Source: Flavobacteriales bacterium | Lineage (GTDB): Bacteria; Bacteroidota; Bacteroidia; CAIKAF01 | Length of the DNA stretch: 64,000 nucleotides | NCBI GenBank assembly: GCA_025055635.1 | Contig: JANWWQ010000004.1 | Location: 20,478-84,477, forward strand | Direction: 5' to 3' | Part shown: piece after piece, positions 4,209 through 49,192 of the stretch | Numbering within the stretch: position 1 is the first letter of the stretch | Layout of the letters: each line of letters starts with the position of its first letter | Notes under the pieces: generated by a model | Databases searched by the model: none | The model's input: the letters and a program-made list of their open reading frames with translations, nothing else | Told to the model about the DNA's origin: nothing | Program-made: the position numbers and the translations under genes

Positions 4209-4221
4209 ACCATAACATCTT

Positions 4222-4800: not shown

Positions 4801-4881
4801 TAACGCGTACTTTTCATCCATTCTTTTATTAAACACAGACTGAAAGCTGACCTGTGATGGTAAGCTAAAGGGGATGTCTGG

Positions 4882-5205: not shown

Positions 5206-6019
5206 TTTCAGCGGTGGATTGAGAAGTCGGAACCTGCACAAACCTACGGCGAAGTTCTTCTGGTAGATACTCAAAAAAGGTATCGCCGCGAAGACCTAAT
5301 CTCAAAGCCTCCAGAGCGACCACTTCCTCAGGTGCAATATTGCCTAGGTTTGCGTTGGCCCCAAGTAATTTGATAAAATAGGTTTGCTGACTTTTCTGCG
5401 GTGCCTCCCAAATAATATGCTCCTGTGGTATCCGGCGCAGGATTTGACGCACCAAAGCCACGTGCGGATGACCACCGGGCCGGTAAATGCCCACCGTCCC
5501 ACTTTCCCGGGCCTCGGCTATTACCTTCCAAGCCCCCGCTTCCAGTTCCCGTTCCATCATATTTTTCCACCGATTGGGAGAAATGAGAATACCGCTTTCC
5601 TTGGACCCCACCTCGGACAAAACCTTGAATTCCTTGGAAAGCCTGCTGATGAAATGCGCCTTCTGGGAGGGCTTAAGCTTAATTGAACCGTCTGAAACCT
5701 CCACAACCTGCAATCGAAGCCTACGGTTCAGTGCCACGTACTCGTTGAACATGTCCCTGACCACAAAAGCTTCAAAGAGAGTGCCTCCGAGGTACACCAG
5801 GATCCCGGCCGAGTGGTAAATGTCAATTTTGGAACGTAGGTTCTGTGTACAATAGGCCGTGCCAAAACCGAGCTTCACGAAATCCACAATATGGCCGGCA
5901 CTTTCGGCCAGATCCTCCGCCTGACGTAATGAAAGACCCTTATCCATCACCATCGTGAGCCCCTGAGTTCGGGGCTTACGGGTACGTTCAGGGATAAAGG
6001 GCAGTTCCTGAAGTGTCAT
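5180..6019 (-). CDS. Phosphosulfolactate synthase (ComA)-family protein
   Basis: 279 aa. ComA adds sulfite to phosphoenolpyruvate to give (2R)-phospho-3-sulfolactate, the first step of archaeal-type coenzyme M synthesis. Family features seen: TMVMDKGLSLRQAEDL, the segment VDFVKLGFGTAY, GILVYLGGTLFEAF, VEVSDGSIKL, EVGSKESG and the late IWEAPQKSQQTYFIKLLG. Bacteroidota carry homologues but do not make coenzyme M, so the product may feed another sulfonate, such as sulfolactate or a sulfonolipid precursor; that part is inference. The start overlaps the TPR gene stop as ATGA, indicating translational coupling. Confidence 0.8.
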   Translation of the reverse strand: MTLQELPFIPERTRKPRTQGLTMVMDKGLSLRQAEDLAESAGHIVDFVKLGFGTAYCTQNLRSKIDIYHSAGILVYLGGTLFEAFVVRDMFNEYVALNRRLRLQVVEVSDGSIKLKPSQKAHFISRLSKEFKVLSEVGSKESGILISPNRWKNMMERELEAGAWKVIAEARESGTVGIYRPGGHPHVALVRQILRRIPQEHIIWEAPQKSQQTYFIKLLGANANLGNIAPEEVVALEALRLGLRGDTFFEYLPEELRRRFVQVPTSQSTAENVAGNTTR

Positions 6020-7437: not shown

Positions 7438-7455
7438 CTTTTTTAGGGTTTAATA

Positions 7456-7463
7456 CAAAGGTA
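7456..7463 (-). promoter_or_regulatory. -7 box upstream of the TPR operon
   Basis: TACCTTTG on the minus strand, 18 nt before the ATG at 7437. I see no clear TTTG at -33, so this rests on the -7 match and position only. Confidence 0.5.
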
Positions 7464-7518
7464 AATATTTACCATAAAACCATCACGGATACCCACCTGT
7501 TTATGAACACCCCAGAGT

Positions 7519-9027
7519 TTAATTCCTGGGGGTTTTAAGAGGCGAGGTGCAAATGCCATACCATTTATGTAAACTCCTGAAATACAGCTTTTTCAATTTA
7601 CGAGGTGGCGATGTTAGATTATCGGCAAGGCTGACAGCCAGCCCCCAATAGAAATTTTTCCCACAAAAACCGGCTACCAGAGCTCCAGACGAATGGAGCA
7701 GGGAAACACTGTCAGCCAGGGCCTCTTGAAGGGGGATTAGGGGAGCCGGATAGTAACGGGCAAAATAAGGCCTTTCAGTTTCTATAATAGCCTCTTTTAC
7801 ATCGTGACAGGGATAAGCGGCCACATAATATGAAGAGTCCGGGATATTTTTCAGAGATATAGCCACTTCGTTTAGTCGGGGGCCTGTCAATAACACGGGG
7901 GTATTCACAGAGGGCAAGCCCTTTTCGGGGTAGTTTAGGGAAAGCCTCTCATACATCTGCCGTATCCGTTTGTCCATATCAATTCCGGGATATCGCTTTG
8001 CTAATTGAAGAGCTTGCGCATGCATGGCTTCCACAAAAAGAGTTTGAGGGCCACAATGACACCACCAAGGATGTGAGCTTTGGGTGGTGTCCGTGGTCAG
8101 AAAAGTGACCAACCGGGGATAATTTCCGGTAAGGCATAACCGATATTTCCGACCTGGGCGAGAAAACCATAATTCTTTAAAAAAGCCATAAAGAATGAGA
8201 CTGTCCTCTTCACTTACGAGTAGGGGTTTTGGACGTTTGGCAGAAGGGACAAACGGTTGCTGATGGGAAGGGGTTTGCCCCAACAAACGCATAAGAAATT
8301 GGCCGTTAAGGCCATATGAAACTCCTTCCCCGCCGCTCATATTCCAGAATATTTCAAAATCAGTCAGGACGGCCACGCGACCCTTTTCACCCTCCGCTTT
8401 AATCTCCACGGAAAGGGCCAAGGGGCGGGCCTCAGCCCATGGCTTCCAGAACAGCAAGGTATCTACCCGGATTCCGGGTCGGCTATGCACATTAAGGCAA
8501 GCCGGCAAGTAAAGCCTCACGGATTGATCAAGCCGCTCAATCCAATTGGCGTTCAGCCAGCCTGCGGCCACCGAATTATCTCCGTATTTTTTGACCGCTG
8601 TATCTTTTATGCTAACGCCGTAGGAATGCAACAACTGATTAAGGGCCACGGCATGGTTAAAAAAATTATCGTGTTCGGCCACCAGAACTAACCTACCGCC
8701 TGCTTTCACAAAATCCCGCATAAGCCGGATTTCCAGTGCCGAATAGTTGCGAAACACTGTGGGCAACACCAGGAGGGTGCATCCTTGACGAGCCCTGCGC
8801 ATTAAGGGCCTTCTGAGGCGGGCGAGACTTTTAAAGGAAAGCTCAGGACGATAACCTTCCCGGAGCATCCTAAGCAGAAACTGCCTTTGTCCGGCAAAAC
8901 CTGGGTCTAAGGGAAAAAAAGGCTGACCATGGCTCAAATCCACTATTACCGTCTGTCCTTTAAGTAAAAGACCTGTAACCAGAAAAGCCAGGATAGCGAT
9001 AACGTTTACGATCCCAGGACTTCTCAT
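7519..9027 (-). CDS. Unknown exported protein with a DUF4350/GATase-like N-terminal part
   Basis: 502 aa. The start is set at the ATG at 9027, which overlaps the stop of the DUF4249 gene as ATGA; the ORF-track start is a TTG. An N-terminal hydrophobic segment (VNVIAILAFLVTGLLLKGQ) suggests export or anchoring. Residues ~30-240 resemble DUF4350-type Rossmann modules: TLLVLPTVF, then FVKAGGRLVLVAEHD, later GRVAVLTDFEIFWN and LNGQFLMRLLG. The C-terminal half (~250 aa) is unfamiliar. Last gene of the TonB receptor-DUF4249 operon, so it may act with that receptor; function unknown. Confidence 0.6.
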   Translation of the reverse strand: MRSPGIVNVIAILAFLVTGLLLKGQTVIVDLSHGQPFFPLDPGFAGQRQFLLRMLREGYRPELSFKSLARLRRPLMRRARQGCTLLVLPTVFRNYSALEIRLMRDFVKAGGRLVLVAEHDNFFNHAVALNQLLHSYGVSIKDTAVKKYGDNSVAAGWLNANWIERLDQSVRLYLPACLNVHSRPGIRVDTLLFWKPWAEARPLALSVEIKAEGEKGRVAVLTDFEIFWNMSGGEGVSYGLNGQFLMRLLGQTPSHQQPFVPSAKRPKPLLVSEEDSLILYGFFKELWFSRPGRKYRLCLTGNYPRLVTFLTTDTTQSSHPWWCHCGPQTLFVEAMHAQALQLAKRYPGIDMDKRIRQMYERLSLNYPEKGLPSVNTPVLLTGPRLNEVAISLKNIPDSSYYVAAYPCHDVKEAIIETERPYFARYYPAPLIPLQEALADSVSLLHSSGALVAGFCGKNFYWGLAVSLADNLTSPPRKLKKLYFRSLHKWYGICTSPLKTPRN

Positions 9028-9953
9028 TGAGCTACAGTCCAAATATCAAAGGCCCCGTAACCCACCCAGCCGCCCATGGCCCCCCCCTGGATATTGCTTT
9101 TCACAGAGGATGGATTAGAAAAGGGATTGCCGCTCGTATTGGCCGACTCCTCAAACGTGCGTAGAAACTCATAGGCAGGCCGGTCAATGGTGCAAAACCG
9201 CACATAGATGGTGTCCCCCCGTTTCCAGTAAAATCTCTCCCTTTGTTCCTGCGCGGTCAGAGTGTCTGAATTGTAAAACACAAAATTTTTGGGATCTGGC
9301 CTGTAAAAGGGAAACTCTATACGTAATCCATTGAATGACTGGTCATCCAGCACACTGGGGTCAAAAATGGGTCGGTAATGCACATACCCTTGCCGTTTAC
9401 AGAAAAGGCGATAGATGTTCCCGTATTGGGGGGGATCGGTAAAATAAAGGTTACAGGGACCTAAGGAATCCAACTGTCCTTCGGGCTTCCAACGTAGGCT
9501 GTCCAATGCTACAATGGGAGGGATAGTGGTGACAGCGGTATATGTTTTTCCATGGAGCCGAATGGTAAGAAAATAGCTCCGACCCGGCTGTCCCACAATA
9601 GTATCACCCATGTAAAAAACGGGAGGAAAATAGGTGGTATCCAAAACCAGGCTCAGATATTCGGTTACCGTTCCGTCGCTAACTGTAACTTCCGCATCCA
9701 AGGCCAAAAACTGCGCAATGGAGTTAGGATCGTAAATGTTAATACCTTGTAGAGGGGTAAAGAAGGGGAAAGTATAAGTGATCCATACCCGGGGATAATC
9801 ACCGGAAAACAAGCGTCCATCCACAACCGGTTTCTTTTCACCTTGAGGAAGCTCCACCGTGATATCCTTCTCACACCCTGACCAGAGTAGAGTCAACACT
9901 ACCAGGAAGAATAGCCTGATGGTGGCTTCCATACTTTTTATTGCCTTGCTCAT
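9024..9953 (-). CDS. DUF4249-family lipoprotein
   Basis: 309 aa. A signal peptide ends in the lipobox LWSGC, followed by EKDITVELP, so it is a predicted lipoprotein. The early LPQGEKKPVVDGRLFSGDYPRV segment is typical of DUF4249 proteins, which in Bacteroidota sit next to TonB receptors. The family has no established biochemical role; surface substrate capture for the receptor is a reasonable guess. It starts 4 nt after the TonB receptor gene and overlaps the next gene by 4 nt. Confidence 0.85.
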   Translation of the reverse strand: MSKAIKSMEATIRLFFLVVLTLLWSGCEKDITVELPQGEKKPVVDGRLFSGDYPRVWITYTFPFFTPLQGINIYDPNSIAQFLALDAEVTVSDGTVTEYLSLVLDTTYFPPVFYMGDTIVGQPGRSYFLTIRLHGKTYTAVTTIPPIVALDSLRWKPEGQLDSLGPCNLYFTDPPQYGNIYRLFCKRQGYVHYRPIFDPSVLDDQSFNGLRIEFPFYRPDPKNFVFYNSDTLTAQEQRERFYWKRGDTIYVRFCTIDRPAYEFLRTFEESANTSGNPFSNPSSVKSNIQGGAMGGWVGYGAFDIWTVAQ

Positions 9954-9957
9954 GGGC

Positions 9958-12384
9958 TTAGTATTTAAAATTCCACGTGATGGTAGGAATTATAGGGAAA
10001 AGCGACACCTGCCGGGCCTGAAGCTTGAACGTGCCTTCTGTCAGGTTGCCGCTGCTGTTGTAATAAATGAAAAAAGGATTCAGTCTGGAATACACGTTGT
10101 AAATTGAGAGACTTAGAGAAGAAAAGAACTTCTTCTGGGGGCGTGTAAGCACAAAGGTGGCCGCCAGATCCAGTCGGTGGTAGGGAGCAAAGCGATAGGA
10201 GTTCCGTTCGGCAAACTCGGTTACCAGGCGTTCCTCAATGAAATAGAGGTTTTTAGGTAAGGTTAATGTGTTGCCCGTAGCGTACACAAACACAGCGGAA
10301 ACGTTCAATCGGGAGGTAATATCGTAGCTAAGCACCACGGAGAGGTCGTGGCGCCGGTCATACTTGGCCCAGAACGTGCGGCCCTCATTCAGTTGAGGAA
10401 AGGTACGGTTGGTCCAGGCCAATGTATATCCAATCCAGCCGTTCCACTTGCCACGGGTTTTCCGGATGAAAAACTCGGCTCCCCAAGCCTTACCCTTTCC
10501 TTGTACCAGCGTGTTATCAATGTTGGAGTTTAGGGTTTGGGCAGGATCAGCCCCGTCCTGGAATTCAATCAGGTCACGCATGGGTTTGTAGTACAGTTCC
10601 ACACTGGTCTCCAGCATATCGTCCCAAAAATTATGGTAATAGCCCACGGCTACCTGCTGGCTAAACTGCGGTACCACGTACTCCGTGGTGGGCAGCCACA
10701 CATCAAAAGGCAGCGAGATGGTGGCTCGCGAAGCCAGTTGGATGTACTGCCAGTTCATGGTGTAGGAGGCTTTCACCGAAGCCCATTCATTCAATTTAAA
10801 GCGGGCCGCAAGCCTTGGTTCTGCCCTGAAGTAAGGTTTTATTAGCTGGTGGCGGCTATAATATATGGTATCCACTGTGGCTCCCAAAGCATCCTTCACA
10901 TAGCGGATGAAGCGCCCGTTGAAGGCGTAAAAGGTGGCCCGAACCCCCAGGTTCACACGAAGGCGTTGTGTGACGTCCCAATCATCTGAGGCGTAGGCGG
11001 AGGCCTCATTTGAGAAATATAAAATAGGCTCCGGTGGTTTTACATCCGTGATCTGCGAAGCAAAGGTGATATTGCTAGGGGTGAACTTATGATTCAAGTA
11101 TTCGGCCCCAAAGCGCACGTCGTGGCCTGCCACGGGATAATAGTTGAAATCCGCTTTCAGACCATAGTCGCGCACACCAGAAAAAAGTTTGAAGCGAAAA
11201 TTGTTCTGGTCTCCTTCAAAACGGAATTTGTAATCCGTGAATACGGCCATCAGGTTGCTAAAAAGCTTTTTATTGAATTGATGGTTCCAGCGCAATGTGG
11301 TGGTGGCGTTGCCCCACACAATGGCCGCTCGGAAACCTACCTCGCGATTCACAAACGAAAACACATCCCGGCCAAAATATCCGCTCAGATACAGCTTGTC
11401 CTTTTCGGAAATGCGGTAATGGAGTTTGGTATTCATGTCATAGAAATAATACCCCGACCCGCGGAAAGGCGATTTTTTAGGAATAAAAGGTTTGGCGAGC
11501 ACATCAAAATACGTACGCCTTCCTGAGGCTATCACGGCCAGTTTGTCCTTGACCAGAGGGCCTTGAACCGTCAGCCGCGAAGCAATGGCTCCCAGTCCAC
11601 CTTCCACTTCCCAGCGTTTAAGATTACCCTCCTTCATGGTGATGTCCACCACGCTGGAAAGGCGTCCGCCGTACTGGGCCGGCATACCACCTTTCACTAA
11701 ATTAACCGATTTAATGGCGTCGCTATTGAAAACAGAAAAAAATCCGAACAGGTGTGAGGCGTTGTACACCACGGCCCCGTCCAGCAACACCAGGTTCTGA
11801 TCGGGTCCCCCGCCGCGTATGTAAAGGCCGGAATTACCCTCGCCCGAGGATTGCACGCCCGGCAAAAGGGTCAGCGTCTTCAGGATGTCCACTTCCCCGA
11901 ACAACACCGGTAGCTTTTTCACATCTTCCATTTGCAGCTCCACCGTCCCCATGCGTGTGCTTTCGGTGTTCTGACGGCTGCGCTCGTCGGTCACTTCCAC
12001 CGCCCCGGCCTCAACGGCTACCTTCTGCAATTCCACCGACAGCGTCAGGTCCCGTGTCAGGTCCACCACCTGGGAAAAATTTCTGTAACCAATGTAGGAT
12101 ACTACCACGGTATATTGCCCCGGCTCCACCGTTAGGGAGTAGAATCCATAAGTATTGGTCGTGGTGCCCTTAAGATTTTCCTTCAGGTACACGCTGGCTC
12201 CCAATAGGGCCTCGCCACTGGCAGCTTCCCGCACATAACCGGAAAGAGTCACCTTGCGCTGAGCCATTCCAGGATTGAGGGCCCAGACCGCCCAGAGACC
12301 TGTCCACATCCAGCCGGCAATACGGGAAAGGGCCACCTGCAAAAGCGTCCGCAAAGATATTTCCCCGCTCCCTGGGCCACGCAT
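9958..12384 (-). CDS. TonB-dependent outer-membrane receptor with CarboxypepD_reg-like domain
   Basis: 808 aa. Order: export signal (ending near GMAQ, residue ~42; M26 is an alternative start), carboxypeptidase-regulatory-like beta domain at ~45-120 (GYVREAASGEALLGASVYL ... YGFYSLTVEPGQYTVVVSYIGY), plug at ~150-270 (LLPGVQSSGEGNSGLYIRGG, YGGRLSSVVDITMKEG), then the barrel, ending in the aromatic TWNFKY. It imports an unidentified substrate using the TonB/ExbBD proton-driven system (not in the window). First gene of a three-gene operon with DUF4249 and an unknown protein, which argues against the SusCD pattern since no SusD follows. Confidence 0.92.
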   Translation of the reverse strand: MRGPGSGEISLRTLLQVALSRIAGWMWTGLWAVWALNPGMAQRKVTLSGYVREAASGEALLGASVYLKENLKGTTTNTYGFYSLTVEPGQYTVVVSYIGYRNFSQVVDLTRDLTLSVELQKVAVEAGAVEVTDERSRQNTESTRMGTVELQMEDVKKLPVLFGEVDILKTLTLLPGVQSSGEGNSGLYIRGGGPDQNLVLLDGAVVYNASHLFGFFSVFNSDAIKSVNLVKGGMPAQYGGRLSSVVDITMKEGNLKRWEVEGGLGAIASRLTVQGPLVKDKLAVIASGRRTYFDVLAKPFIPKKSPFRGSGYYFYDMNTKLHYRISEKDKLYLSGYFGRDVFSFVNREVGFRAAIVWGNATTTLRWNHQFNKKLFSNLMAVFTDYKFRFEGDQNNFRFKLFSGVRDYGLKADFNYYPVAGHDVRFGAEYLNHKFTPSNITFASQITDVKPPEPILYFSNEASAYASDDWDVTQRLRVNLGVRATFYAFNGRFIRYVKDALGATVDTIYYSRHQLIKPYFRAEPRLAARFKLNEWASVKASYTMNWQYIQLASRATISLPFDVWLPTTEYVVPQFSQQVAVGYYHNFWDDMLETSVELYYKPMRDLIEFQDGADPAQTLNSNIDNTLVQGKGKAWGAEFFIRKTRGKWNGWIGYTLAWTNRTFPQLNEGRTFWAKYDRRHDLSVVLSYDITSRLNVSAVFVYATGNTLTLPKNLYFIEERLVTEFAERNSYRFAPYHRLDLAATFVLTRPQKKFFSSLSLSIYNVYSRLNPFFIYYNSSGNLTEGTFKLQARQVSLFPIIPTITWNFKY

Positions 12385-30264: not shown

Positions 30265-31130
30265 AAAGTAAATTTTATTTTAGATTTCTAAATCCCACCT
30301 GGATATTAAACTCCCTGGCGGCCCTCGTGGCTGTATTTATCTTCTGGGGGATAATCCTGGATGTGGCATATTATTTCATCAGCCGCAATTTTGATCTGTT
30401 CCCAAAGATGCAATTTGACTACATAGTTGAGATAAGATATGAAAAAGACATTCAGTTTTTCCGGCGAAAAGTATTGCTCACCTTTTCTATTTCATTCTTT
30501 GCAATTCCTCTTGTCTTGATTTTTCTCAATAATGCCCTGTTCCATTGGTCTGTCCGCAAGCTTTCAAACCTGAAGTTACTTTTTCTGTGGAGCTACATTT
30601 TTTCGCTGAATAACTTTTTGGGTTATCTGGCTTTTGCTTCTTTTGGGGATCGTTCAAAAGTACTCACCGGTCTTTTGCGCAGGAAATTTAAAATCATTCT
30701 GGAATACCTCGGACTTTCAGAAAGTTGGCTGCCATTGCTTACAGCGCTCATCTTTCTTTTTTACTCTATCAGAGGAAGCCACATGTGTGGCCGTTTCCTG
30801 GTGATGTCCCCTTCTTTTTCCCTAAATAAGGATCCTGTTGGTCGGCTGACCTATTTGTTAAACACAGTTATTATTCCGCTTTTTTTATTCACAATTTTCG
30901 GTCCTTTTTTATATATCAATGAATTACCATACGAATCAAGATATCAAAACATGCTGATTTTTTGGGGACCCGCACTGGTAATGCTATACAGAGCCTATAG
31001 GCCTGGAATTTTTGCCCGATTCCCCGCTTGTCCGGGTTCATGGATTGATTATCCGGATATCCTGTTGTATTCGGGGGCTGTTATCCTGATATTTTTAATT
31101 ACCTATCTAATACCGGAATTTTATTACTAA
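30255..31130 (+). CDS. Polytopic membrane protein of unknown function
   Basis: 291 aa with about seven hydrophobic segments: residues ~17-38, 70-93, 106-126, 156-171, 200-222, 230-247 and 270-290. Between the fourth and fifth sits the polar GSHMCGRFLVMSPSFSLNKDP. No signature I recognise; lipid or sugar transfer is only a guess. Starts inside the end of recJ (10-nt overlap), so it is probably cotranscribed with it. Its TAA stop interleaves with the TAG of the convergent porin-like gene in the tetranucleotide CTAA. Confidence 0.6.
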   Translation: MPIKSKFYFRFLNPTWILNSLAALVAVFIFWGIILDVAYYFISRNFDLFPKMQFDYIVEIRYEKDIQFFRRKVLLTFSISFFAIPLVLIFLNNALFHWSVRKLSNLKLLFLWSYIFSLNNFLGYLAFASFGDRSKVLTGLLRRKFKIILEYLGLSESWLPLLTALIFLFYSIRGSHMCGRFLVMSPSFSLNKDPVGRLTYLLNTVIIPLFLFTIFGPFLYINELPYESRYQNMLIFWGPALVMLYRAYRPGIFARFPACPGSWIDYPDILLYSGAVILIFLITYLIPEFYY

Positions 31131-32548
31131 AACATGTAGTCCAAAATAAAATTCCAGTTAAACATATTGACCTTATTATGAATGAAGCGATACTGATTAT
31201 AAGTATTTCCGAGGGCACCCTTGTAAACCAAAAGCCCTACTATTGAAAATCCCTTCAGGTATCCCGTGAAATTGTACCGTACCTCTACGTTTAATTGATT
31301 AAAAGAAGGCATGCCATATTTATTTAATCTATATTCCCTAACATCGGGGAGATAGAAGTGGCCGTAGGCCACGGTCGGCGTAAGCCGATTGCCCCAAAAA
31401 CCATACGATATACGTGCTACGGCAGCGTGCACATTACCTAAACCGTCGTGCCGTTCGCGCGGCATAAATGTGTAGAAATATTCTCTCCCCCACTCTCGCG
31501 GGAAAAGAAAGCGCCCATGGGATGTAATTCGTGTATAGTTTAATGAAAAACGTAAAGAATTCTTCTGAAAGGCCAGCCGGCCGCTGAAGATATTGGAAGA
31601 TTGTCCTCGGGGCATGTAAGCTTTGGCCGGATCACAGTGACCGCCGCATCGCACAGGATCTTGCCTTGTGGCGATGAAGCCCGGCTGGAAAATCCACTTG
31701 GACCCCAAGGTAAATCGGCCTTCCAGTTCCAGAAATGCGGTGTTGAAAATGTTTTCTGTAAAAAGATCCCAAAACTGCACCTTGAAGCGGTCCTGCCATT
31801 GGTAGGCCAGTTTAAGGGCAAAGAAGCCCGCCGAACGGAGATTTCCCGGATATTCAGATTTTTGACCATAAATGTTTACCCCCGCCGGATAGACGCCCAT
31901 AGACTCGCTAATCCTATACCAGTTCACGGTGGAACGGGGCGATATGGCCCGAAGGTACCCCCCCTCCATGGAAAAACCTTTCACGTCGTCCAAGGATAGC
32001 CATATCCCCTCTTCCAGCGTGCCGCGCATCCGGCCGTCCTGCTTGTTGAGAAAAGGAGTGTGGACTTCTTGCCTGCCAATACGAAAATTAAAATTCTTAT
32101 ACCGATAATTTAAATATAAATTTTCAAGTCTGTCCAAGTCGTTACGGTTTTCGGGGTCGGTAATGTCAAAAAGCCCGATTTCATAACGGTTTCCAAGTCC
32201 CGAGAGGCTGTCAATTCGGCCCAAGGGGGAAGAAGCCACATTAAAAATAAAAAAACCGGTGAGCCCAAACTGAAAACCTTTCCATTCCGGACTTTCATAA
32301 CCAATACCCGCTCCAAGAGCATAAGCCCAATAATCACTGAGGGGACCATAGTTGGTAGTAGCCATCAGAAAAGAGCGTGCATGGGCGTGAAAATAACCAT
32401 AGCGGATCAGCACGCTGCGTAAGGATCCGCAAGTATCTCCATAAGAGGGGTTATCGTGCAACTGCCCCCATCCCACACTTTGGGCAATTAAATTTACTAG
32501 AAAAAATTTAAAAATTCTTCTTAAAAGCCCGCTTTGAGATAGCTCCAT
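31127..32548 (-). CDS. Outer-membrane beta-barrel (porin-like) protein of the sulfur cluster
   Basis: 473 aa. An N-terminal export signal ends near SVGWGQ; then many alternating amphipathic strands with aromatic girdles (YWAYALGAGIGY, LYLNYRYKNFNFRIGRQEV, LKLAYQWQDRFKVQFWDLF), finishing in LDYMF, a C-terminal Phe typical of OM barrels. The RIGRQEVHTPFLNKQDGRM segment recalls OprD-type porins. The start codon lies inside the dsrE-like gene (28-nt overlap), so it is last in the sulfur operon and may pass thiosulfate or related anions. Function inferred from context only. Confidence 0.65.
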   Translation of the reverse strand: MELSQSGLLRRIFKFFLVNLIAQSVGWGQLHDNPSYGDTCGSLRSVLIRYGYFHAHARSFLMATTNYGPLSDYWAYALGAGIGYESPEWKGFQFGLTGFFIFNVASSPLGRIDSLSGLGNRYEIGLFDITDPENRNDLDRLENLYLNYRYKNFNFRIGRQEVHTPFLNKQDGRMRGTLEEGIWLSLDDVKGFSMEGGYLRAISPRSTVNWYRISESMGVYPAGVNIYGQKSEYPGNLRSAGFFALKLAYQWQDRFKVQFWDLFTENIFNTAFLELEGRFTLGSKWIFQPGFIATRQDPVRCGGHCDPAKAYMPRGQSSNIFSGRLAFQKNSLRFSLNYTRITSHGRFLFPREWGREYFYTFMPRERHDGLGNVHAAVARISYGFWGNRLTPTVAYGHFYLPDVREYRLNKYGMPSFNQLNVEVRYNFTGYLKGFSIVGLLVYKGALGNTYNQYRFIHNKVNMFNWNFILDYMF

Positions 32549-32949
32549 CCTTGCTCTTGTTTTTCAATAATATAAACTAAGCCAAACGGCACAAATCCTA
32601 TATCTCGGATGAGCGCCGAATGAGGAATATTCTTTTGTCGTAAGGTATTCTCACAAGCTAAAAAGTTTACACCTTTTTTTCTAAATTCAGAAATTTTATC
32701 CTGAAAGGTGGATTTTTCATTTAATAAAATATCAATTCCCGGACCATGAGCTACAACTTCAATCTGCACAGAATCAGCCCATCGGGACTTGAGGGCCTGG
32801 ATTTGATTAATAAGGTTTTTATGAACCTCAGGATCAGCAGATGTGAGTTGAACGATTACTTTGTGATGTGGAAGTTTTTGGACTTGGGTAAAAGAAATCC
32901 CATGAATGAAAAAAAATTGTACTAAAAACCATTTTACAAAAGTTCTCAT
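32521..32949 (-). CDS. Exported DsrE-like protein
   Basis: 142 aa from ATG 32949 (the ORF-track start is a TTG). N-terminal export signal (FVKWFLVQFFFIHGISFTQ), then a DsrE/F-type fold: KVIVQLTSADPEVHKNLI, VQIEVVAHGPGIDILLNEKS, and VNFLACENTLRQKNI, where the cysteine occupies the position used for sulfur transfer in DsrE-like proteins. Such proteins carry persulfide sulfur; an exported one would work in the periplasm. Neighbours (TsdA-like and SoxB-like) support a role in thiosulfate or persulfide handling. It overlaps the porin-like gene by 28 nt. Confidence 0.72.
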   Translation of the reverse strand: MRTFVKWFLVQFFFIHGISFTQVQKLPHHKVIVQLTSADPEVHKNLINQIQALKSRWADSVQIEVVAHGPGIDILLNEKSTFQDKISEFRKKGVNFLACENTLRQKNIPHSALIRDIGFVPFGLVYIIEKQEQGWSYLKAGF

Positions 32950-33044: not shown

Positions 33045-34115
33045 TTACATATTTTTTTTCTCCGCTAATTTTTGGTAAAACTCCTTAATTGGGCCAAAGG
33101 GGCCATATTTATGTTGCGACTCCGGGAAAGAATCCAAGAAAGGCCCAAAGGGATGATCAATGGGTTTCTTAGAAATGTCAGGCCAATCCTTAGATATATC
33201 CATTACTGGCCGAGGCTGGGAATTCACAAATGCGGCCACATCCCACGCCTCTTCGTCTGTGAGTTGGGGGTTATCGTGAGTAGCCCCAAGAGGCATGTTC
33301 GCTTTCACATAACCTGCGAAACGGGACAACCTATAAAGCCCCGCACCGGTGTTGTAGCTGTTAGGGCCCCATAAAGGGGGATATTGATAGGTAACACCAT
33401 CTGCAGCTTTTACCCCAGCGCCATCGGGTCCATGGCAAATTTTGCATTTGGCCTCGTACACCAGACGACCCTTCTCGGGATCAGCAGGCCTGTCCAGAAA
33501 GGGCACCTCTACAAGGCCGGCCCCTTTGGGAGTTTCTCCTTTAGAGACGTTCTGTCCCAGCCACTTAATGTAAGCCACAATAGCTTTCATCTCCCGGGAA
33601 TCAACGGCCAAGGGTTTGCCATTAAGACTTCTTTCAAAACAGTCATTCACCCGTTTCTCTATGGACTCCACCGTGCCGGAACGAGCCCGGAACTTGGGGT
33701 AGGTTGAAGCTACCGCACTGTAGTTATTGCCAAAAATTTTAGTGCCTGCTTCCAAATGACAATTTTGGCAATTCATTCCGTTAGTTATCTGAGCAACAGA
33801 ACCCTTGGGCCCCAAATACTTTGCCGTTTGCACGATGAGCTCACGGCCATATTTTATTTCCTCATCCGTAATGGTAGCAGGATCAGGTGCTACCCAGAAA
33901 AGGTCTTTTCCCTTTTGTTCATCCCTTGTACCCATGCCCTTCTCTTTAGCACTTTGAGGGCGCGCAATGAGTTTCAGCACTGGAGCCCCGGACATCCAGA
34001 AAAAAACACCTATTACCAGCAAAAAAACCAGAACGACTGTTAACCATTGGAGTTGATCCAGTTGCTTTAAAAGCCGTTGTAAATTCTTATCTTCAGAAGA
34101 TAACTCCCTCAGCAT
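33045..34115 (-). CDS. Membrane-anchored dihaem cytochrome c, TsdA-like thiosulfate dehydrogenase
   Basis: 356 aa. A transmembrane helix at ~22-46 anchors a periplasmic domain with two haem sites: CQNCH (residues ~115) and CKICH (~225). Between them, RVNDCFERSLNGKPL holds a cysteine where TsdA proteins have the unusual Cys axial ligand of the catalytic haem; ANMPLGATHD offers the Met ligand of the second. TsdA oxidises two thiosulfates to tetrathionate (or reverses this). The context (SoxB-like, DsrE-like, YeeE pair) agrees. Residue numbers are approximate. Alternative: a related dihaem cytochrome with other substrates. Confidence 0.78.
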   Translation of the reverse strand: MLRELSSEDKNLQRLLKQLDQLQWLTVVLVFLLVIGVFFWMSGAPVLKLIARPQSAKEKGMGTRDEQKGKDLFWVAPDPATITDEEIKYGRELIVQTAKYLGPKGSVAQITNGMNCQNCHLEAGTKIFGNNYSAVASTYPKFRARSGTVESIEKRVNDCFERSLNGKPLAVDSREMKAIVAYIKWLGQNVSKGETPKGAGLVEVPFLDRPADPEKGRLVYEAKCKICHGPDGAGVKAADGVTYQYPPLWGPNSYNTGAGLYRLSRFAGYVKANMPLGATHDNPQLTDEEAWDVAAFVNSQPRPVMDISKDWPDISKKPIDHPFGPFLDSFPESQHKYGPFGPIKEFYQKLAEKKNM

Positions 34116-34130
34116 ATTTTACAATATTTC

Positions 34131-35858
34131 CTAATGGAATTCGTACGAAGTCCCCTGAAGCTGTGTGAGAAGCGTGGGAGGATAATCTGTGGCTATGGCC
34201 CGCCCCTCCAGTTTGGGGGACACCACGGGGTGGGCGGCCAAATATTCTTCCAGCACGGCATGCATGAAAAAGCCCGTCCGAAGAGGATTCTTAACGCCCT
34301 CTAGCCGGCATAACACATCATCTGGATCCCCTTCTCTTTCGCAAGCTATTATCGTGTACTCGCGCTCCAAATCCAACGGCTCCCCTTTTACTTTAACCCA
34401 GTTTAATCGTTGTCCAAAATCATTATTAATGGTGAAATTTACTTGCATTCCGGAAAACCGCACAAACCAACCGCCAAAGCGCCGTGATGGATCTTTTGCG
34501 AAGGCATTTTCTAATTCCTTTTCTAACCAATTCCAGAGTTGCTTCCCCGTAACCACACCAGACTTTATTTCAGCATCTACAGGAAGCATGTTCCATAGAA
34601 ACTCTTTTGTAATTTCGGCTTCTCCCTTCTGCGGATCCACTGCTAAAGGCTGGCAAAAACGAAAACCGTTACTGAGCGCTATGTCTGGCTTGAATTTCCA
34701 CATCATAGCATCAGTAATAAGGTTATCCATGGGCGTTTCCAAGACAAAATACCGAAGCAGGGGTGTGCTTGTGCGTCCTATTACCCGTTTCATTTCTTTT
34801 TCAAAAGGAGCTGCCACTTGCTGGATCATAGCCTGTAGCTCTGGATCAGGGGGGTATTTGGCTGGATCTACATCCAATAGTTGATAAGTGTAATCACTGA
34901 GTTTTCCATCCCTAAAGTGTAAATCTAATTTTCCGATAAATGATCCAAAGGCCCCGCACTCTACAACCCGGGTATATTTGCCTTGGATAGGTGTGCGTAC
35001 ACGTTCATGTGTGTCAGCACCAAGAATAAAATCTACACCCTGACATACAGGATTATTGGCCAGACCCACCTGTTGGGCTAAGCCCATATGGGTGACGAGA
35101 AAAACACCATGGCAGCCCTCTATCTGACGCAAATACCGCACATATTTTGCAACGCTTTTATCGGCGTGTTCAAAACGGATGCCTTTGCTATAGGCGGGAG
35201 ATTGCCGTTTAGGAATCAGATGATCGGTGTACCCTATAAAACCTAACTTAATCCCATCAATGACTTTAATCCAATAGGGCGGATATATCAAATCCCCATT
35301 GTATTCATCATCTGTAGCGTGCCACATATTGGCGCAGATCTTTGCAGCCAAGGTGTGGCCCATGTCGTATAGCATTTTTTGTTTTTTGTAAACGACCTCC
35401 CAATTGCCAGGAAGCATGAGATCGTACCCCAGGTTATTAAAAAGGGGTATGAGAGCCTCCCCTTCTGTCAAACTGGCCACACCATGACCATGAAAGTAGT
35501 CCCCCCCGTCAATAAGAATTGTTCGACCGGGATTTTGCTGCCGCAGGGACTGAATCATTGTCTTTAAGACGGCGAGGCCCCCACGTTTGCGAAAAACACT
35601 TTTCCCATTTTCCCAAAAAAATTCATCGTGCGTATGCAATTGGGCATGAATATCAGCGGTATATAATAAGGTTATTTGTACCTCCGGAGGAATACAAGAT
35701 TCTTTAGAATGAGAAGGGGCTGAAGAAATACCTGGTGGAGGAGTTGATAACCCATCGGGCAGGGCCATACCCAACCCCACGGCGGCACTTCCCAACAAAA
35801 ATTCCTTGCGCGAGAGAGGAACAGAAGCCCGTTCTGGGGCAGTGCGTTCCTTTTTCAT
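34131..35858 (-). CDS. SoxB-like thiosulfohydrolase (metallophosphoesterase fold)
   Basis: 575 aa. Tat-like signal SRKEFLLGSAAVGLGMALP (an RK rather than RR pair). Metal-site motifs of the SoxB/5'-nucleotidase group: YTADIHAQLH, DGGDYFHGHGVASLTEGEAL, MLPGNWEVVY (the NWE form rather than NHE), VTHMGLAQ and GADTHERVRTPI. The C-terminal domain contains MDNLITDAMMWKFKPDIALSNGFRF. SoxB removes sulfate from cysteine-bound thiosulfonate on SoxYZ. No soxYZ lies in the window, so its partner is either elsewhere or different. Starts 16 nt after DUF6691-like, in the sulfur operon. Confidence 0.8.
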   Translation of the reverse strand: MKKERTAPERASVPLSRKEFLLGSAAVGLGMALPDGLSTPPPGISSAPSHSKESCIPPEVQITLLYTADIHAQLHTHDEFFWENGKSVFRKRGGLAVLKTMIQSLRQQNPGRTILIDGGDYFHGHGVASLTEGEALIPLFNNLGYDLMLPGNWEVVYKKQKMLYDMGHTLAAKICANMWHATDDEYNGDLIYPPYWIKVIDGIKLGFIGYTDHLIPKRQSPAYSKGIRFEHADKSVAKYVRYLRQIEGCHGVFLVTHMGLAQQVGLANNPVCQGVDFILGADTHERVRTPIQGKYTRVVECGAFGSFIGKLDLHFRDGKLSDYTYQLLDVDPAKYPPDPELQAMIQQVAAPFEKEMKRVIGRTSTPLLRYFVLETPMDNLITDAMMWKFKPDIALSNGFRFCQPLAVDPQKGEAEITKEFLWNMLPVDAEIKSGVVTGKQLWNWLEKELENAFAKDPSRRFGGWFVRFSGMQVNFTINNDFGQRLNWVKVKGEPLDLEREYTIIACEREGDPDDVLCRLEGVKNPLRTGFFMHAVLEEYLAAHPVVSPKLEGRAIATDYPPTLLTQLQGTSYEFH

Positions 35859-35874
35859 AGAATCTTATTGAATT

Positions 35875-36393
35875 TTAATGAGGGAGCTTCTCCCGCAAAT
35901 AACCGTACACCCATGTGCCTACGATGGCACTCAGAAGGGTAATCAACACGACCGTGGCGCCCATACCAATCTGAGCAAAAAGGGGCCCAGGGCACGCTCC
36001 GGTGATGGCCCAACCTATACCAAATAACAACCCTCCGAATATTTGACCTTTGGTAAATTTTTTGGGATGAAAAGTAATTTCTTCTCCGTAAATGGTTTTA
36101 ATTCTTAATTTCTTAATCAAGAAAACCGACAACGCACCCACGAGCACCGCACTCCCAATGATGCCATACATATGAAAGGACTGCAGGCGAAACATTTCTT
36201 GAATACGAAACCAACTGACCACTTCAGCCTTCACTAAAACAATACCGAAAAATATCCCTGCAAGCAGGTATTTTAATTTATGGTACCACTTGTGTTCCAG
36301 TTGGCTTTCGTTAACGCAAATAGTATCCAGAGAGCGAACTTCAAAATCCGTGTTTGTTTCTACTATTGGTGAAGTTTTTACTGGATTTTCCAT
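35875..36393 (-). CDS. YeeE/YedE-family membrane protein, DUF6691-type half
   Basis: 172 aa. A long polar N-terminus (~45 residues), then about four hydrophobic segments, with GQIFGGLLFGIGWAITGACPGP carrying the conserved GxxxxGxCPG cysteine motif of YeeE/YedE sulfur transporters. The paired gene upstream has the other half ([11 protein letters not shown]). Such split pairs are taken to import thiosulfate or sulfane sulfur. 55 nt after its partner and 16 nt before the SoxB-like gene. Substrate inferred from neighbours. Confidence 0.82.
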   Translation of the reverse strand: MENPVKTSPIVETNTDFEVRSLDTICVNESQLEHKWYHKLKYLLAGIFFGIVLVKAEVVSWFRIQEMFRLQSFHMYGIIGSAVLVGALSVFLIKKLRIKTIYGEEITFHPKKFTKGQIFGGLLFGIGWAITGACPGPLFAQIGMGATVVLITLLSAIVGTWVYGYLREKLPH

Positions 36394-36448: not shown

Positions 36449-37015
36449 TTATTTTAAGGATAGAATTAGGGGGACAATAAAATGAGCAGAGAAAAATCCG
36501 CCAACCATAAAACAAATCACGGCTATGAGGGAAGGCCACTGTAGAGTAGATAAGCCCATGATGGCATGTCCACTAGTACAACCGCCGGCATAGCGGGTGC
36601 CAAAACCAATCAGAAATCCCCCCAGCACCATCATTAAAATACCTTGAAGCGTGAACAGATTGTTCCAGTTAATAATGTCCTTAGGCACTAAGGAAGAATA
36701 ATCCTGAATACCATACTTGGACAACTCCTGATGCAGCTGAGGATGAACTTGAACAGGCTCCGGATTTTTAAGCCAGAAGGAAGCTAAAAATCCACCCAGG
36801 AAAATACCGGCCACGAAAAAGAGGTTCCACGCTTCCTTTCGCCAATCGTATTTGAAGAAAGGAATCCCAGCCGGTAAACAAGCTGCACAAATATGACGCA
36901 GGGAAGAACTAATGCCAAATGACTTATTGCCTAAGATGAGCAAGAGCGGCACAGTGAGCCCAATTAATGGGCCAGCGACATACCAAGGCCAAGGTTTACT
37001 GAGGATCTGCATCAT
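36449..37015 (-). CDS. YeeE/YedE-family sulfur transporter half
   Basis: 188 aa with about five membrane segments. The signature [19 protein letters not shown], with its conserved cysteine, is the motif of YeeE/TsuA-like thiosulfate transporters. An earlier CAACLPAG segment adds two cysteines. Full TsuA proteins are about twice this length, so it probably pairs with the DUF6691-type gene downstream. M1 (37015) and M2 (37012) are equivalent starts. Confidence 0.84.
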
Positions 37016-37104: not shown

Positions 37105-37380
37105 CTATCTGGAATCCTTTTTAGCCTCCCAGCGACCTAGCAAACAGCTCACAAAAGAAAGAGCCTTACGCCCTAAGGAATTTTCTCCAGCAGGTGGATA
37201 TCCTAATTTTGTGAGTTTTTCTTTAATTAGATTTTCATCGGCTGAGCCCCAGACTTTTACTGTGTCATCCTCCAAAACAACCTCAACACTATCAACTCCC
37301 GGCAATGCAGAGAGTGCTTTTTGGATGCTGGCAGCACATCCCCTGCATTTGAGGTTTTCTACATGCAATGTCAAAACCAT
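37105..37380 (-). CDS. Heavy-metal-associated (HMA) domain protein
   Basis: 91 aa. A ferredoxin-like HMA domain (residues 1-66) with LKCRGCAASIQKALSALPGV, whose CxxC pair binds soft metals, usually Cu(I). The remaining ~25 residues are basic and may be disordered. It starts 4 nt after the rhodanese gene in the sulfur operon. Copper buffering or sulfur relay could both fit; the position between rhodanese and YeeE genes is unusual for a plain copper chaperone. Confidence 0.85.
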   Translation of the reverse strand: MVLTLHVENLKCRGCAASIQKALSALPGVDSVEVVLEDDTVKVWGSADENLIKEKLTKLGYPPAGENSLGRKALSFVSCLLGRWEAKKDSR

Positions 37381-37384
37381 ATAC

Positions 37385-37750
37385 TTATTTTTTGAGGGCT
37401 TCAGCTACATTTTGCCATGAACCGCCGTTTATCACGTTGGTGATGCCGTGGCTTTCTAGAATTTCCTTAGCACGGGCACTGCGGCTCCCGCTGCGGCAAA
37501 AAACCACGATTTTTTCTTTATTCCTAAACTCCCCAATTCGCGATAATACTTGGTCGAGCGGAATGTTTACAGCGCCCGGCGCTGATCCTGCGGCAAATTC
37601 GGCGGGCGTACGCACATCCACCAAAAAAGCCTTTTGGAGATCCTCTTTTGTAAGCGCGGGTCCAGGACCCTGAGCAAACATTCTAAATAGTCCTAGCATA
37701 ATGATATTAACTAAACTAAAAATTAAGAGTTGAATACCTTGCTTTGACAT
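37385..37750 (-). CDS. Exported or membrane-anchored rhodanese
   Basis: 121 aa. N-terminal hydrophobic segment (GIQLLIFSLVNIIMLGLF), then a rhodanese domain with FLVDVRTPAEFAAGSAPGAVNIPL and the persulfide loop VVFCRSGSRSARA. The start lies inside the MBL-rhodanese gene (28-nt overlap). M18 (37699) is a fallback start but would leave little signal. Being exported, it could handle sulfane sulfur on the periplasmic side, near the YeeE transporters. Confidence 0.85.
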   Translation of the reverse strand: MSKQGIQLLIFSLVNIIMLGLFRMFAQGPGPALTKEDLQKAFLVDVRTPAEFAAGSAPGAVNIPLDQVLSRIGEFRNKEKIVVFCRSGSRSARAKEILESHGITNVINGGSWQNVAEALKK

Positions 37751-39159
37751 ACGAAGTCGGTTTTAGGAATGTTGGTTTTCTTGATAGCGTTGAACCCCCC
37801 TTCTATATCAGTAAAGTTACGAAAACCTCGTGACTGCAATATGCTCGCAGCAATCATGCTTCGGTAACCACCGGCACAATGCAGATAAAAATGTTCCTGA
37901 GGATTAATCTCACGAATCCAATCGTTGATGTACTGTAGAGGACGATTATAGGCACCCTCCACATGTTCCGCTGCATATTCACTTTCTTTTCTTACATCTA
38001 TTATCTTATCTTCATTAATTTTTACCCTTTGCGCAAATTCCTCAGCTGTAATCCGATTTACCGAATCCACTTCTTTTCCTGCATTTTTCCAGGATTCAAA
38101 TCCTCCCTTCAAGTGCCCCAATACATTATCAAAACCCACACGACTAAGGCGCGTAATAGCTTCCTCTTCCGTGCCCGGGTAAGTTACTAACAAGATGGGG
38201 TGCTTAACATCCACCACCATTGCTCCCACCCAGGGTGCAAAATCGCCCCGCAGTCCAATGTTGATAGAATTAGGAATAAAGCCTTTGGCAAAGTCGGTGT
38301 TGTCACGTGTATCCAAAATTAAAGCTCCTGTTTCTTCAGCCACAGCCTCAAACTCCTGGGGAGTGAGAGCTCGCATTCCTTGATGAAGGGCCTTTTCATA
38401 CGATTCATAACCCTGTTTGTTCATCATCACATTGTAGCCAAAATAACCAGGAGGTGGTGTAAGCCCCTCCGTTACAGCCTTAACAAAGGCTTCGCGGGAA
38501 GGTTGCCGTAAGGCATAGTTCACTTGCTTCTGGTTACCCAAGGTGTCCACAGTTTCTTTCATCATATTCTTTCCGCAGGCACTGCCGGCTCCGTGGCCCG
38601 GGTAAACGATGAGATCATCGGGCAAGGGTAATATTTTATTGTAAATGCTGTCATATAATAGACCGGCCAGTTGTTCCATCGTCATGTTAGCGGCTTTTTG
38701 AGCCAGGTCAGGTCGCCCGACATCACCCAGGAACAATGTATCACCGGTGAAGATGGCTACTTCTTTGCCATTTTCGTCAAGTAAAAGAAAACAGGAGCTT
38801 TCAAGAGTGTGGCCGGGTGTATGAATCACGCGAATCTTCACACGCCCTAGCGGAAATTCCTGGCCATCTTCGGCCACCACGCAGTCAAATCCACATTGGG
38901 CTGTAGGTCCATATACAATAGGGGCTCCCGTGACCCGAGATAGTTCCAAGTGTCCACTGACAAAATCAGCGTGAAAATGTGTCTCAAAAATGTACTTTAA
39001 ATTAACGCCGTCCTTTTGCAGACGCTCCAAGTAGGGTTTGGTTTCACGCAACGGGTCAATAATGGCTGCCTCTCCATCGGATACGATGTAGTAGGCTCCC
39101 TGCGCTAGGCAACCGGTGTAGATTTGTTCTACTTTGTAATTTTTAGTCGTGGTTTCCAT
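37723..39159 (-). CDS. MBL-fold hydrolase fused to two rhodanese domains, persulfide dioxygenase-like
   Basis: 478 aa. Residues ~1-250 are an ETHE1-type metallo-beta-lactamase domain: ETHFHADFVSGHLELS, HTPGHTLESSCFLL, TGDTLFLGDVGRPDL, YPGHGAGSACGKNM. Such enzymes oxidise glutathione or other low-molecular-weight persulfide to sulfite. The first rhodanese domain (~265-360) has LLVTYPGTEEEA in place of a catalytic cysteine and is probably inactive; the second (~370-465) has HCAGGYRS with Cys. No signal peptide. Sulfite made here could leave via the adjacent TauE/SafE. Confidence 0.87.
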   Translation of the reverse strand: METTTKNYKVEQIYTGCLAQGAYYIVSDGEAAIIDPLRETKPYLERLQKDGVNLKYIFETHFHADFVSGHLELSRVTGAPIVYGPTAQCGFDCVVAEDGQEFPLGRVKIRVIHTPGHTLESSCFLLLDENGKEVAIFTGDTLFLGDVGRPDLAQKAANMTMEQLAGLLYDSIYNKILPLPDDLIVYPGHGAGSACGKNMMKETVDTLGNQKQVNYALRQPSREAFVKAVTEGLTPPPGYFGYNVMMNKQGYESYEKALHQGMRALTPQEFEAVAEETGALILDTRDNTDFAKGFIPNSINIGLRGDFAPWVGAMVVDVKHPILLVTYPGTEEEAITRLSRVGFDNVLGHLKGGFESWKNAGKEVDSVNRITAEEFAQRVKINEDKIIDVRKESEYAAEHVEGAYNRPLQYINDWIREINPQEHFYLHCAGGYRSMIAASILQSRGFRNFTDIEGGFNAIKKTNIPKTDFVCQSKVFNS

Positions 39160-39249: not shown

Positions 39250-40059
39250 TTACACTCCCTGAATTCCAATTGTTTCCTTGATCAAAATGTAAACCCCCAT
39301 TACAAGCACAAACCATCCGAAGGCGGGCTTGAGTTTTTTACCGTCGATCCTTCGGCTTAAAAGGGCTCCAATAAAAATTCCAATTACTGAAAAAACGCTC
39401 ATGAGAATCAACAGCCTCCAATCCAGACTGGCAAAATTTCGCCCGCCCGTGAAGCCGATAAGCGACTTGGCCGCTATAATGAGAAGGGAGGTGCCCACAG
39501 CCTGCTTCATAGGAAGGCGGCTCAAAACCACTAAGGCGGGAATGATCAAAAAGCCGCCTCCCGCACCTACAAAACCGGTTAAAACTCCCACCACGGTTCC
39601 TTCCAAAAATATCAGGGGGTAATTAAACTTTTGGAAACTTTCGGAATTTTTTTCCTCGTGGGGCTTGTCTTTTTTTATCATGCTGTAGGATGAGGCTATC
39701 ATCAGGAGGGCAAAAACGGCCATCGTGAGGAGATCTTTAGTCATCACAAAACGACCCATTCTAAAAATTTCAGATGGCAAGGCTGGCATCAGCCATGCTT
39801 GAGTGGCATACACTGCTATGATAGAGGGAATCCCAAATACCACAGCGGTGCGCACGTTCACAAGACCTTGCCTGAAGTAAGGAACTGCGCCCAGCGCGGC
39901 CGTCAAACCTACAATAAAAAGAGAGTACCCCGTAGCTTCCACAGGTTTCACACCCATCAGATAAACCAACACCGGCATGGTAAGAATGCTCCCCCCTGCA
40001 CCGATCAGACCGAGTATGACTCCGATAAGTACCGAAGCAATGTAACCGAATATTTCCAT
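39250..40059 (-). CDS. Sulfite exporter TauE/SafE-family protein
   Basis: 269 aa from ATG 40059 (the ORF-track start is GTG). About eight membrane segments in two halves. The first half begins SVLIGVILGLIGAGGSILTMPVLVYL and the second VGVLTGFVGAGGGFLIIPALVVL, the paired GAGG motifs of the TauE/SafE family. These export sulfite or sulfoacetate. It leads the sulfur cluster, upstream of the persulfide-dioxygenase-like gene that would make sulfite. Copper or other anion export is possible in distant members. Confidence 0.87.
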   Translation of the reverse strand: MEIFGYIASVLIGVILGLIGAGGSILTMPVLVYLMGVKPVEATGYSLFIVGLTAALGAVPYFRQGLVNVRTAVVFGIPSIIAVYATQAWLMPALPSEIFRMGRFVMTKDLLTMAVFALLMIASSYSMIKKDKPHEEKNSESFQKFNYPLIFLEGTVVGVLTGFVGAGGGFLIIPALVVLSRLPMKQAVGTSLLIIAAKSLIGFTGGRNFASLDWRLLILMSVFSVIGIFIGALLSRRIDGKKLKPAFGWFVLVMGVYILIKETIGIQGV

Positions 40060-40477
40060 AATTGGCACGCAAAATTGATATTTCTGACACGGCCTGTTTG
40101 GTGATAAATGTTACAGAACCTTTTTATCAGCGGGTAGGCCCCTAAAAGACTTCGGAAAAAATCCTCCCTGAATGAGCCTTCTATGCAGCTTGGCAACAAT
40201 TTCTGGATGGTATGCGGGAATAATTATAAAAGCGTTGCTTTCTCTTACAACTAAATATTCAAAAATCTATTTTTATTAAAGATGAAATAAAACTCACAAA
40301 ACCCATGTCCGATGTATGCAGAGAAATTTGCCTTAATGCTAATTATTTTCAAGCTTAAATTATCTTACCTTTCGTCAAAAAGCAACTTTATGTTCCCAAT
40401 ATTATGTAGGGGCCAGGGAAATCTCGCATTTATGGAAACCCCCCTGAAAAAATTAGCCCTTCCAGCCAATTTTAATT
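40060..40477. other. Intergenic region upstream of the sulfur cluster, no gene seen
   Basis: About 420 nt, AT-rich toward the lipoprotein gene. No ORF with coding character. An imperfect palindrome GTGATAAATGTTAC (near 40101) lies upstream of tauE but is too weak to call an operator. No CAAAnnTA box is placed well for tauE. Confidence 0.45.
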
Positions 40478-48785: not shown

Positions 48786-49142
48786 GGGGCCGATCGGTTT
48801 TGACAGCGTGAAGAGTGTGTCGGTAAGCATGTGGAGGGCTGGCGATTCACCTCCTAAATCTCTGATCGTCAAAAAGTAAGTGGCGAAAGCTACAACTACG
48901 CAATGGCTGCCTAATTAAGCAGCGTTGCCATCCCTCCCCGGCCAGCCTGCCGCTGGTGGAAGGGGTGTCGTCCATGCAGGCCGCTGGTCAGGAGGGGTTT
49001 CCGGCCTGTCCAGTGTATTGCGGAAACAAGGGAAGTGCCGCTTGTCCTGTGGCTAAGCACTTCCTCCTTTAAAACAGGACTAAACATGTAGAAAGCCGAT
49101 ATGCTCCACGTTTGGACGAGGGTTCGATTCCCTCCGGCTCCA
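48786..49142 (+). ncRNA. ssrA: tmRNA (10Sa RNA)
   Basis: 357 nt. The 5' end GGGGCCGATCGGTTTTGACAG and the 3' end GTTCGATTCCCTCCGGCTCCA form the tRNA-like domain (acceptor GGGGCCG/CGGCTCC, one G-T; T-loop TTCGATT). The tag frame at 48882-48914 reads GGC GAA AGC TAC AAC TAC GCA ATG GCT GCC TAA, giving GESYNYAMAA. A Gly resume codon is usual in Bacteroidota, whose common tag is GENNYALAA. CCA is not encoded. Rescues stalled ribosomes and marks the nascent protein for proteolysis. Confidence 0.95.
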
Positions 49143-49192
49143 CTAATTTTTTTGGATATTATCCCCAACAGTTATCCATAAAAAAGCGCAAG

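Follow-up and report, generated by a model that had tools for sequence, protein, structure and literature searches.

SoxB is a widely used marker gene for thiosulfate oxidation, and its function is assumed to depend on SoxYZ. The closest described system to the locus analysed here is the TsdA-SoxB-SdoA/B pathway of Erythrobacter, in which tsdA, one or more SoxB-like genes and the gene for a metallo-beta-lactamase (MBL)-rhodanese dioxygenase are clustered without the Sox complex or soxYZ. In E. flavus 21-3, deletion of either tsdA or soxB blocks the formation of zero-valent sulfur, the soxB mutant accumulates tetrathionate, and the tsdA mutant still converts added tetrathionate to sulfur (PMC7608252, PMC9426585). 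The cluster of this strain includes the MBL-rhodanese dioxygenase and lacks the remaining Sox components; in the published model, TsdA produces tetrathionate, SoxB converts it to sulfate and zero-valent sulfur, and the dioxygenase carries out further oxidation (PMC7608252, PMC9426585). The authors also reported sets of tsdA and soxB in Bacteroidetes (PMC7608252, PMC9426585). The idea of a TsdA-SoxB pathway, with Bacteroidetes named, is thus already published (PMC7608252), and a later survey gave the same reading for genomes with SoxB and TsdA and without other sox genes (PMC12345210). In the searched text of the first report, the action of SoxB on tetrathionate was deduced from mutants and not from the pure enzyme (PMC7608252). 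Canonical SoxB is active on trithionate, a small analogue (PMC5336275), which makes small polythionates plausible substrates.

The window, the whole stretch of DNA that was analysed, is 64,000 nucleotides long and originates from a metagenome-assembled genome (MAG) of a Flavobacteriales bacterium (GCA_025055635.1, contig JANWWQ010000004.1, positions 20,478 to 84,477; assembly 2.32 Mb, 94% complete). Its nearest protein-level matches are from Chitinophagales/Bacteroidia MAGs. A SoxB-like and a TsdA-like gene had been recognized side by side in an earlier reading of the sequence alone, and both were recovered at those positions on the minus strand, encoding proteins of 575 and 356 residues, respectively. 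They are included in a run of ten genes on one strand, separated by 95 bp or less or overlapping, in the order TauE, persulfide dioxygenase-rhodanese, rhodanese, HMA, YeeE pair, SoxB-like, TsdA, DsrE and porin (Table 1). The SoxB-like gene, whose product is designated as SoxBL, lies 16 bp downstream of a YeeE half and 15 bp upstream of tsdA. The dioxygenase matches the NCBIfam model bifunc_ST_SDO with the e-value 2e-15, short of the cut-off of that model. The split YeeE pair is of the PmpA/PmpB type, a proposed YeeE-like heterodimer (PMC11582611). In comparison with Erythrobacter, the SoxB-like gene here is single and belongs to a clade apart from canonical SoxB, and the operon adds the split YeeE, TauE, an exported DsrE and a porin. 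The likeness between the two systems is drawn from gene content and published genetics.

Table 1. Genes of the operon and key residues of SoxBL, with positions in the window.
Feature	Position	Strand	Basis
TauE/SafE-type sulfite/anion exporter, first gene of the operon	39250..40068	-	Pfam TauE E=1e-48
Persulfide (sulfur) dioxygenase, metallo-beta-lactamase and two rhodanese stretches, SdoA/Blh type	37723..39159	-	Pfam Rhodanese and Lactamase_B
Single-domain rhodanese, hydrophobic N-terminus, overlaps the dioxygenase gene	37385..37750	-	Pfam Rhodanese E=4e-15
HMA (metallochaperone-like) protein	37105..37380	-	Pfam HMA E=3e-16
Half-size YeeE sulfur/thiosulfate transporter	36449..37015	-	Pfam Sulf_transp E=2e-18
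Second half-size YeeE (DUF6691) transporter	35875..36393	-	Pfam Sulf_transp and DUF6691
SoxB-like hydrolase SoxBL, Tat-type signal	34131..35858	-	
SoxBL Asn152-Trp153	35400..35405	-	alignment
SoxBL Asp282-Thr-His284	35007..35015	-	alignment
SoxBL Cys402	34653..34655	-	alignment
TsdA, membrane-anchored diheme thiosulfate dehydrogenase	33045..34115	-	Pfam SoxA-TsdA_cyt-c; PDB TsdA E=7e-52
Exported DsrE-family protein, Cys99	32521..32949	-	Pfam DsrE E=1e-8
OprD-type outer-membrane porin, overlaps dsrE	31127..32548	-	Pfam OprD E=4e-12

SoxBL matches the SoxB model TIGR04486 with 246 bits (E = 5e-73), less than half of the curated cut-off of 550 bits. T. thermophilus SoxB was the best match among solved structures in the sequence search, and also the top match of the AlphaFold model of SoxBL (mean pLDDT 86.9; TM 0.81 by target length). 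The single Pfam match is 5_nucleotid_C, the public annotation is bifunctional metallophosphatase/5'-nucleotidase, and no curated family is dedicated to this protein. A phylogenetic tree of 43 sequences was built with IQ-TREE, and four clades, each of a single origin, were obtained: nucleotidases, canonical SoxB, a group of short SoxB-like proteins, and SoxBL. SoxBL (100/100) and canonical SoxB (100/100) are separate clades, the short SoxB-like group is on the sister side of SoxBL (95/83), and the SoxB-type proteins, including SoxBL, are split from the nucleotidases with the support of 100/98.

The motifs were compared between 84 SoxBL proteins and 22 reference proteins, using UshA numbering. 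Asp41, His43, Asp84 and His217 are retained in all SoxBL proteins. The NWE metal motif described in the sequence-only reading is real and invariant (84/84). Its Asn152-Trp153 corresponds to His-Trp in SoxB (6/6) and to Asn-His in nucleotidases (5/6): Asn152 (UshA 116) is at the position of a metal-2 ligand, which is His in SoxB and Asn in nucleotidases, and the SoxB-like Trp153 (UshA 117) occupies the position of the nucleotidase catalytic His. Asp282 replaces the first His (UshA His252) of the H-x-H metal motif in 84/84 SoxBL proteins and in 0/22 references, so that Asn-Trp and Asp-Thr-His stand in SoxBL against His-Trp and His-Thr-His in SoxB. These positions, which we take from UshA to belong to metal site 2, indicate a change of this site from Asp/His/His/His in SoxB to Asp/Asn/His/Asp in SoxBL. 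The altered ligands could support a different reaction. The nucleotidase catalytic dyad His117-Asp120 is lost in 84/84 SoxBL proteins, being replaced with Trp and with Val, Ala, Ile, Leu or Met, and none of the 84 retains the Arg and Phe that bind the nucleotide. The segment between the first metal motif and the Gly-Gly strand consists of 21 residues in SoxBL and about 63 in canonical SoxB. Five Cys residues are near-invariant in SoxBL. One of the Cys residues, Cys402, aligns with the substrate-binding Arg410 of UshA and is present in 82/84; the corresponding residue is Gly in SoxB. The solved structure of SoxB joined to SoxYZ by a disulfide (4UWQ) shows, in the aligned sequence, a Cys at the site of the wild-type SoxB Trp, and this Trp position therefore appears to face the carrier thiol.

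SoxBL thus shares with canonical SoxB (TIGR04486; 2WDF, 4UWQ) the fold, Tat-type export, Trp in place of the catalytic His, and most metal ligands. The signal of the window protein has RK instead of RR, as had been noticed earlier, and this is a mild variant of the twin-arginine motif; the full motif is present in 68/82 SoxBL relatives, RK only is seen in 8, and TatC is encoded in the source genome. The differences from canonical SoxB are the low score, the His-to-Asn and His-to-Asp replacements in metal site 2, Cys402, the short N-terminal segment, the separate clade, and the lack of SoxYZ, SoxAX and SoxCD. On sequence grounds, SoxBL is neither a 5'-nucleotidase nor a canonical SoxB, but forms its own clade.

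The best matches of the TsdA-like protein among solved structures are those of Allochromatium vinosum TsdA (E = 7e-52). As in A. vinosum TsdA (4WQC), there are two hemes, a Cys ligand and a conserved catalytic segment: the heme-1 ligand C159 and the two CxxCH motifs (C116/C119/H120 and C224/C227/H228) are invariant among 75 sequences. The window protein differs in being anchored to the membrane at its N-terminus and in having a conserved tail at its C-terminus that is unaligned. This tail (residues about 310–345), beyond the region of similarity to A. vinosum TsdA, has the invariant residues D310, W311, K317, D320, P325, D328, H335, K336, G338 and P339, and is perhaps used for docking.

Among 52 SoxBL loci with at least 3.5 kb on either side (well-flanked loci), TsdA is encoded within 3.5 kb of SoxBL in 49, on the same strand every time. 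Ten genomes have a SoxBL locus without TsdA (three of these loci are well-flanked), and the whole-genome search found TsdA in nine of them; the one remaining genome is suspected to be mis-binned. The phylum was also sampled evenly, with 297 Bacteroidota genomes of at least 90% completeness; SoxBL (>700 bits) was found in 15, and TsdA in at least 11 of these 15. The latter count is a lower bound because a few stretches of the database were masked; one relative had such a stretch over the body of the gene next to SoxBL, with a TsdA-like tail alone left visible. TsdA was undetectable in 3 of the 15 genomes, and therefore, the substrate of SoxBL may not always come from TsdA.

The lack of SoxYZ, SoxAX and SoxCD had been noted for the window, and for SoxY, SoxZ, SoxA, SoxX and SoxC it extends to the whole 94%-complete genome. 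Neither SoxY (PF13501) nor SoxZ (PF08770) was found in the source genome or in 39 other SoxBL genomes, including the Daejeonella and Lacibacter isolates, with three sox-bearing plasmids as controls all positive. The search of the source genome revealed no SoxA, the TsdA gene being the sole SoxA/TsdA-domain match, no SoxC, and no SoxX match reaching the family cut-off. In the phylum sample, SoxY was above the cut-off in 35/297 genomes, and no genome had both SoxY and SoxBL: SoxY was present in 0/15 SoxBL genomes against 14/14 genomes with a canonical-type SoxB match. These 14 genomes belong to one family, and their matches score 210–230 bits against the SoxBL model. SoxBL without SoxYZ is phylum-wide in Bacteroidota. 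With SoxY missing from the SoxBL genomes searched, a substrate other than SoxY thiosulfonate would be needed, as the sequence-only reading had anticipated; its suggestion that the carrier is encoded elsewhere fails on the same genomes. In Daejeonella sp. JGW-45, a SoxC-type sulfite dehydrogenase was found above the family cut-off, yet no SoxYZ.

The operon context was surveyed at 80 SoxBL loci, many of them truncated by the end of the contig. The halves of the YeeE pair were found at 53 and 50 loci, the dioxygenase at 42, TauE at 33, the porin at 33 and DsrE at 30, and the HMA gene, at 1/80, is not conserved among relatives. Complete plasmids of two Runella species, R. rosea and R. slithyformis, carry the same operon, which rules out an assembly artefact and shows that the operon can reside on plasmids. 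A SoxBL belonging to the Bacteroidota clade is also encoded in a record titled Nocardioidaceae bacterium UBA4001; the assignment of this record to Actinomycetota seems to reflect mis-binning or a transfer.

Gene content, layout, synteny, TsdA co-occurrence, SoxYZ absence, motifs and phylogeny are direct results, and from them we infer the substrate, the products and the order of the steps. The simplest option, absent from the sequence-only reading, is that free tetrathionate from TsdA would be hydrolysed by the SoxB-type enzyme with no protein carrier. The operon would then serve carrier-independent oxidation of thiosulfate or sulfide, of the TsdA-SoxB-sulfur dioxygenase kind, with SoxBL hydrolysing the tetrathionate made by TsdA, and the balance of the evidence leans modestly toward this function. 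The altered metal ligands and the sampled genomes without detectable TsdA count against it. Thiosulfate would enter through the porin, and membrane-anchored TsdA would join two thiosulfates into tetrathionate, passing the electrons to the respiratory chain. Exported SoxBL would hydrolytically remove a terminal sulfonate from tetrathionate, or from a different small S-sulfonate, to yield sulfate and sulfane sulfur. The sulfane sulfur would perhaps be relayed by the Cys of exported DsrE and imported via the split YeeE pair; the cytoplasmic dioxygenase-rhodanese would convert it to sulfite or thiosulfate, and TauE would export the product.

Alternatively, DsrE may replace SoxY, with Cys99 loaded with thiosulfonate by TsdA or by tetrathionate and SoxBL hydrolysing the protein-bound sulfonate. 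Such a thiol carrier had been suggested from the sequence, and some observations favour it: DsrE is exported, its Cys99 is invariant (38/38), and its gene is in the same operon and adjoins SoxBL on the Runella plasmids. However, DsrE was found in just 23 of the 52 well-flanked loci, against 49 for TsdA, and the shortened segment of SoxBL (21 versus 63 residues) gives no sign of a conserved carrier-docking surface, so this role of DsrE is unlikely. It is somewhat less likely that SoxBL is a self-sufficient thiosulfonate hydrolase, in which Cys402 would take the thiosulfonate from tetrathionate, the Asn/Asp dimetal site would release sulfate, and the persulfide would go to DsrE; if so, the carrier function of SoxY would be built into the enzyme. 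The Gly at the Cys402 position in 2/84 SoxBL proteins counts against this proposal. A role of SoxBL in sulfide/sulfite detoxification rather than respiration, in which it would hydrolyse the S-sulfonates that sulfite and tetrathionate form on small periplasmic thiols or on proteins, is slightly more doubtful again. BigR-type operons are sulfide-detoxification operons, and the operon core here (dioxygenase-rhodanese, YeeE pair and TauE) resembles them in family assignments. The three sampled genomes with SoxBL and no detectable TsdA also fit such a role, but the linkage to TsdA (49/52 loci, and 9/10 of the otherwise unlinked genomes) points to tetrathionate.

Two further explanations concern the identification itself. 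It is very improbable that SoxBL is an ordinary periplasmic 5'-nucleotidase that is beside TsdA by chance. The Pfam match and the public annotation agree with such an enzyme, but the dyad and the nucleotide-binding residues are lost throughout, the TsdA link is conserved across the phylum, and the tree places SoxBL outside the nucleotidases; the motifs and the tree together largely refute this identity and uphold the earlier SoxB-like assignment. More improbable still is that SoxYZ/SoxAX are present but were missed through incomplete assembly or a divergent carrier. The MAG is 94% complete and some database stretches were masked, but SoxYZ was found in none of the 39 other SoxBL genomes, isolates included, with the controls positive, and SoxY was found in none of 14 further SoxBL genomes at least 90% complete. 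A recognisable SoxY or SoxZ elsewhere is rejected on the 40 genomes and the even phylum sample.

New in this analysis are the operon, its distribution across the phylum together with the demonstrated absence of SoxYZ, and a subfamily of SoxB whose metal site is distinct. SoxBL falls short of the SoxB cut-off and carries a 5'-nucleotidase annotation as a result; a large Bacteroidota clade that lacks SoxYZ will therefore be missed or misread in surveys. The clade lends support to a common occurrence of the TsdA-SoxB route, and is relevant to the proposed action of SoxB-type enzymes on free tetrathionate, for which the evidence to date comes from mutants. The naturally substituted metal ligands (Asn and Asp, each in place of His) and the missing segment provide a tool to separate SoxB catalysis from the parts that serve the carrier.

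The short SoxB-like proteins are encoded by plasmids of Novosphingobium, Sphingobium, Hymenobacter and Bradyrhizobium, beside MBL, YeeE, DUF6691 and TauE genes. Their sulfur-gene neighbours are similar to those of SoxBL, whereas they keep H-x-H and mostly HWE or HWD, and are about 80–90 residues shorter. On the Novosphingobium and Sphingobium plasmids, the short SoxB-like gene is accompanied by an MBL hydrolase, split YeeE, TauE, DsbA, cytochrome bd and an exported DsrE; these loci are a likely counterpart from Alphaproteobacteria, in the taxonomic order to which Erythrobacter also belongs. Plasmid Paks1 of Pontibacter akesuensis (3733–10662) carries three adjacent paralogues, a SoxBL, a short SoxB-like and a nucleotidase-like one; the neighbouring genes encode DsrE, DoxX, TlpA, a sulfate exporter and a rhodanese.

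Elsewhere in the window, a gene for ComA-type phosphosulfolactate synthase was found at 5180–6019 (Pfam E = 6e-87), perhaps for sulfonolipid synthesis, and a tmRNA gene with the tag GESYNYAMAA at 48786–49143.
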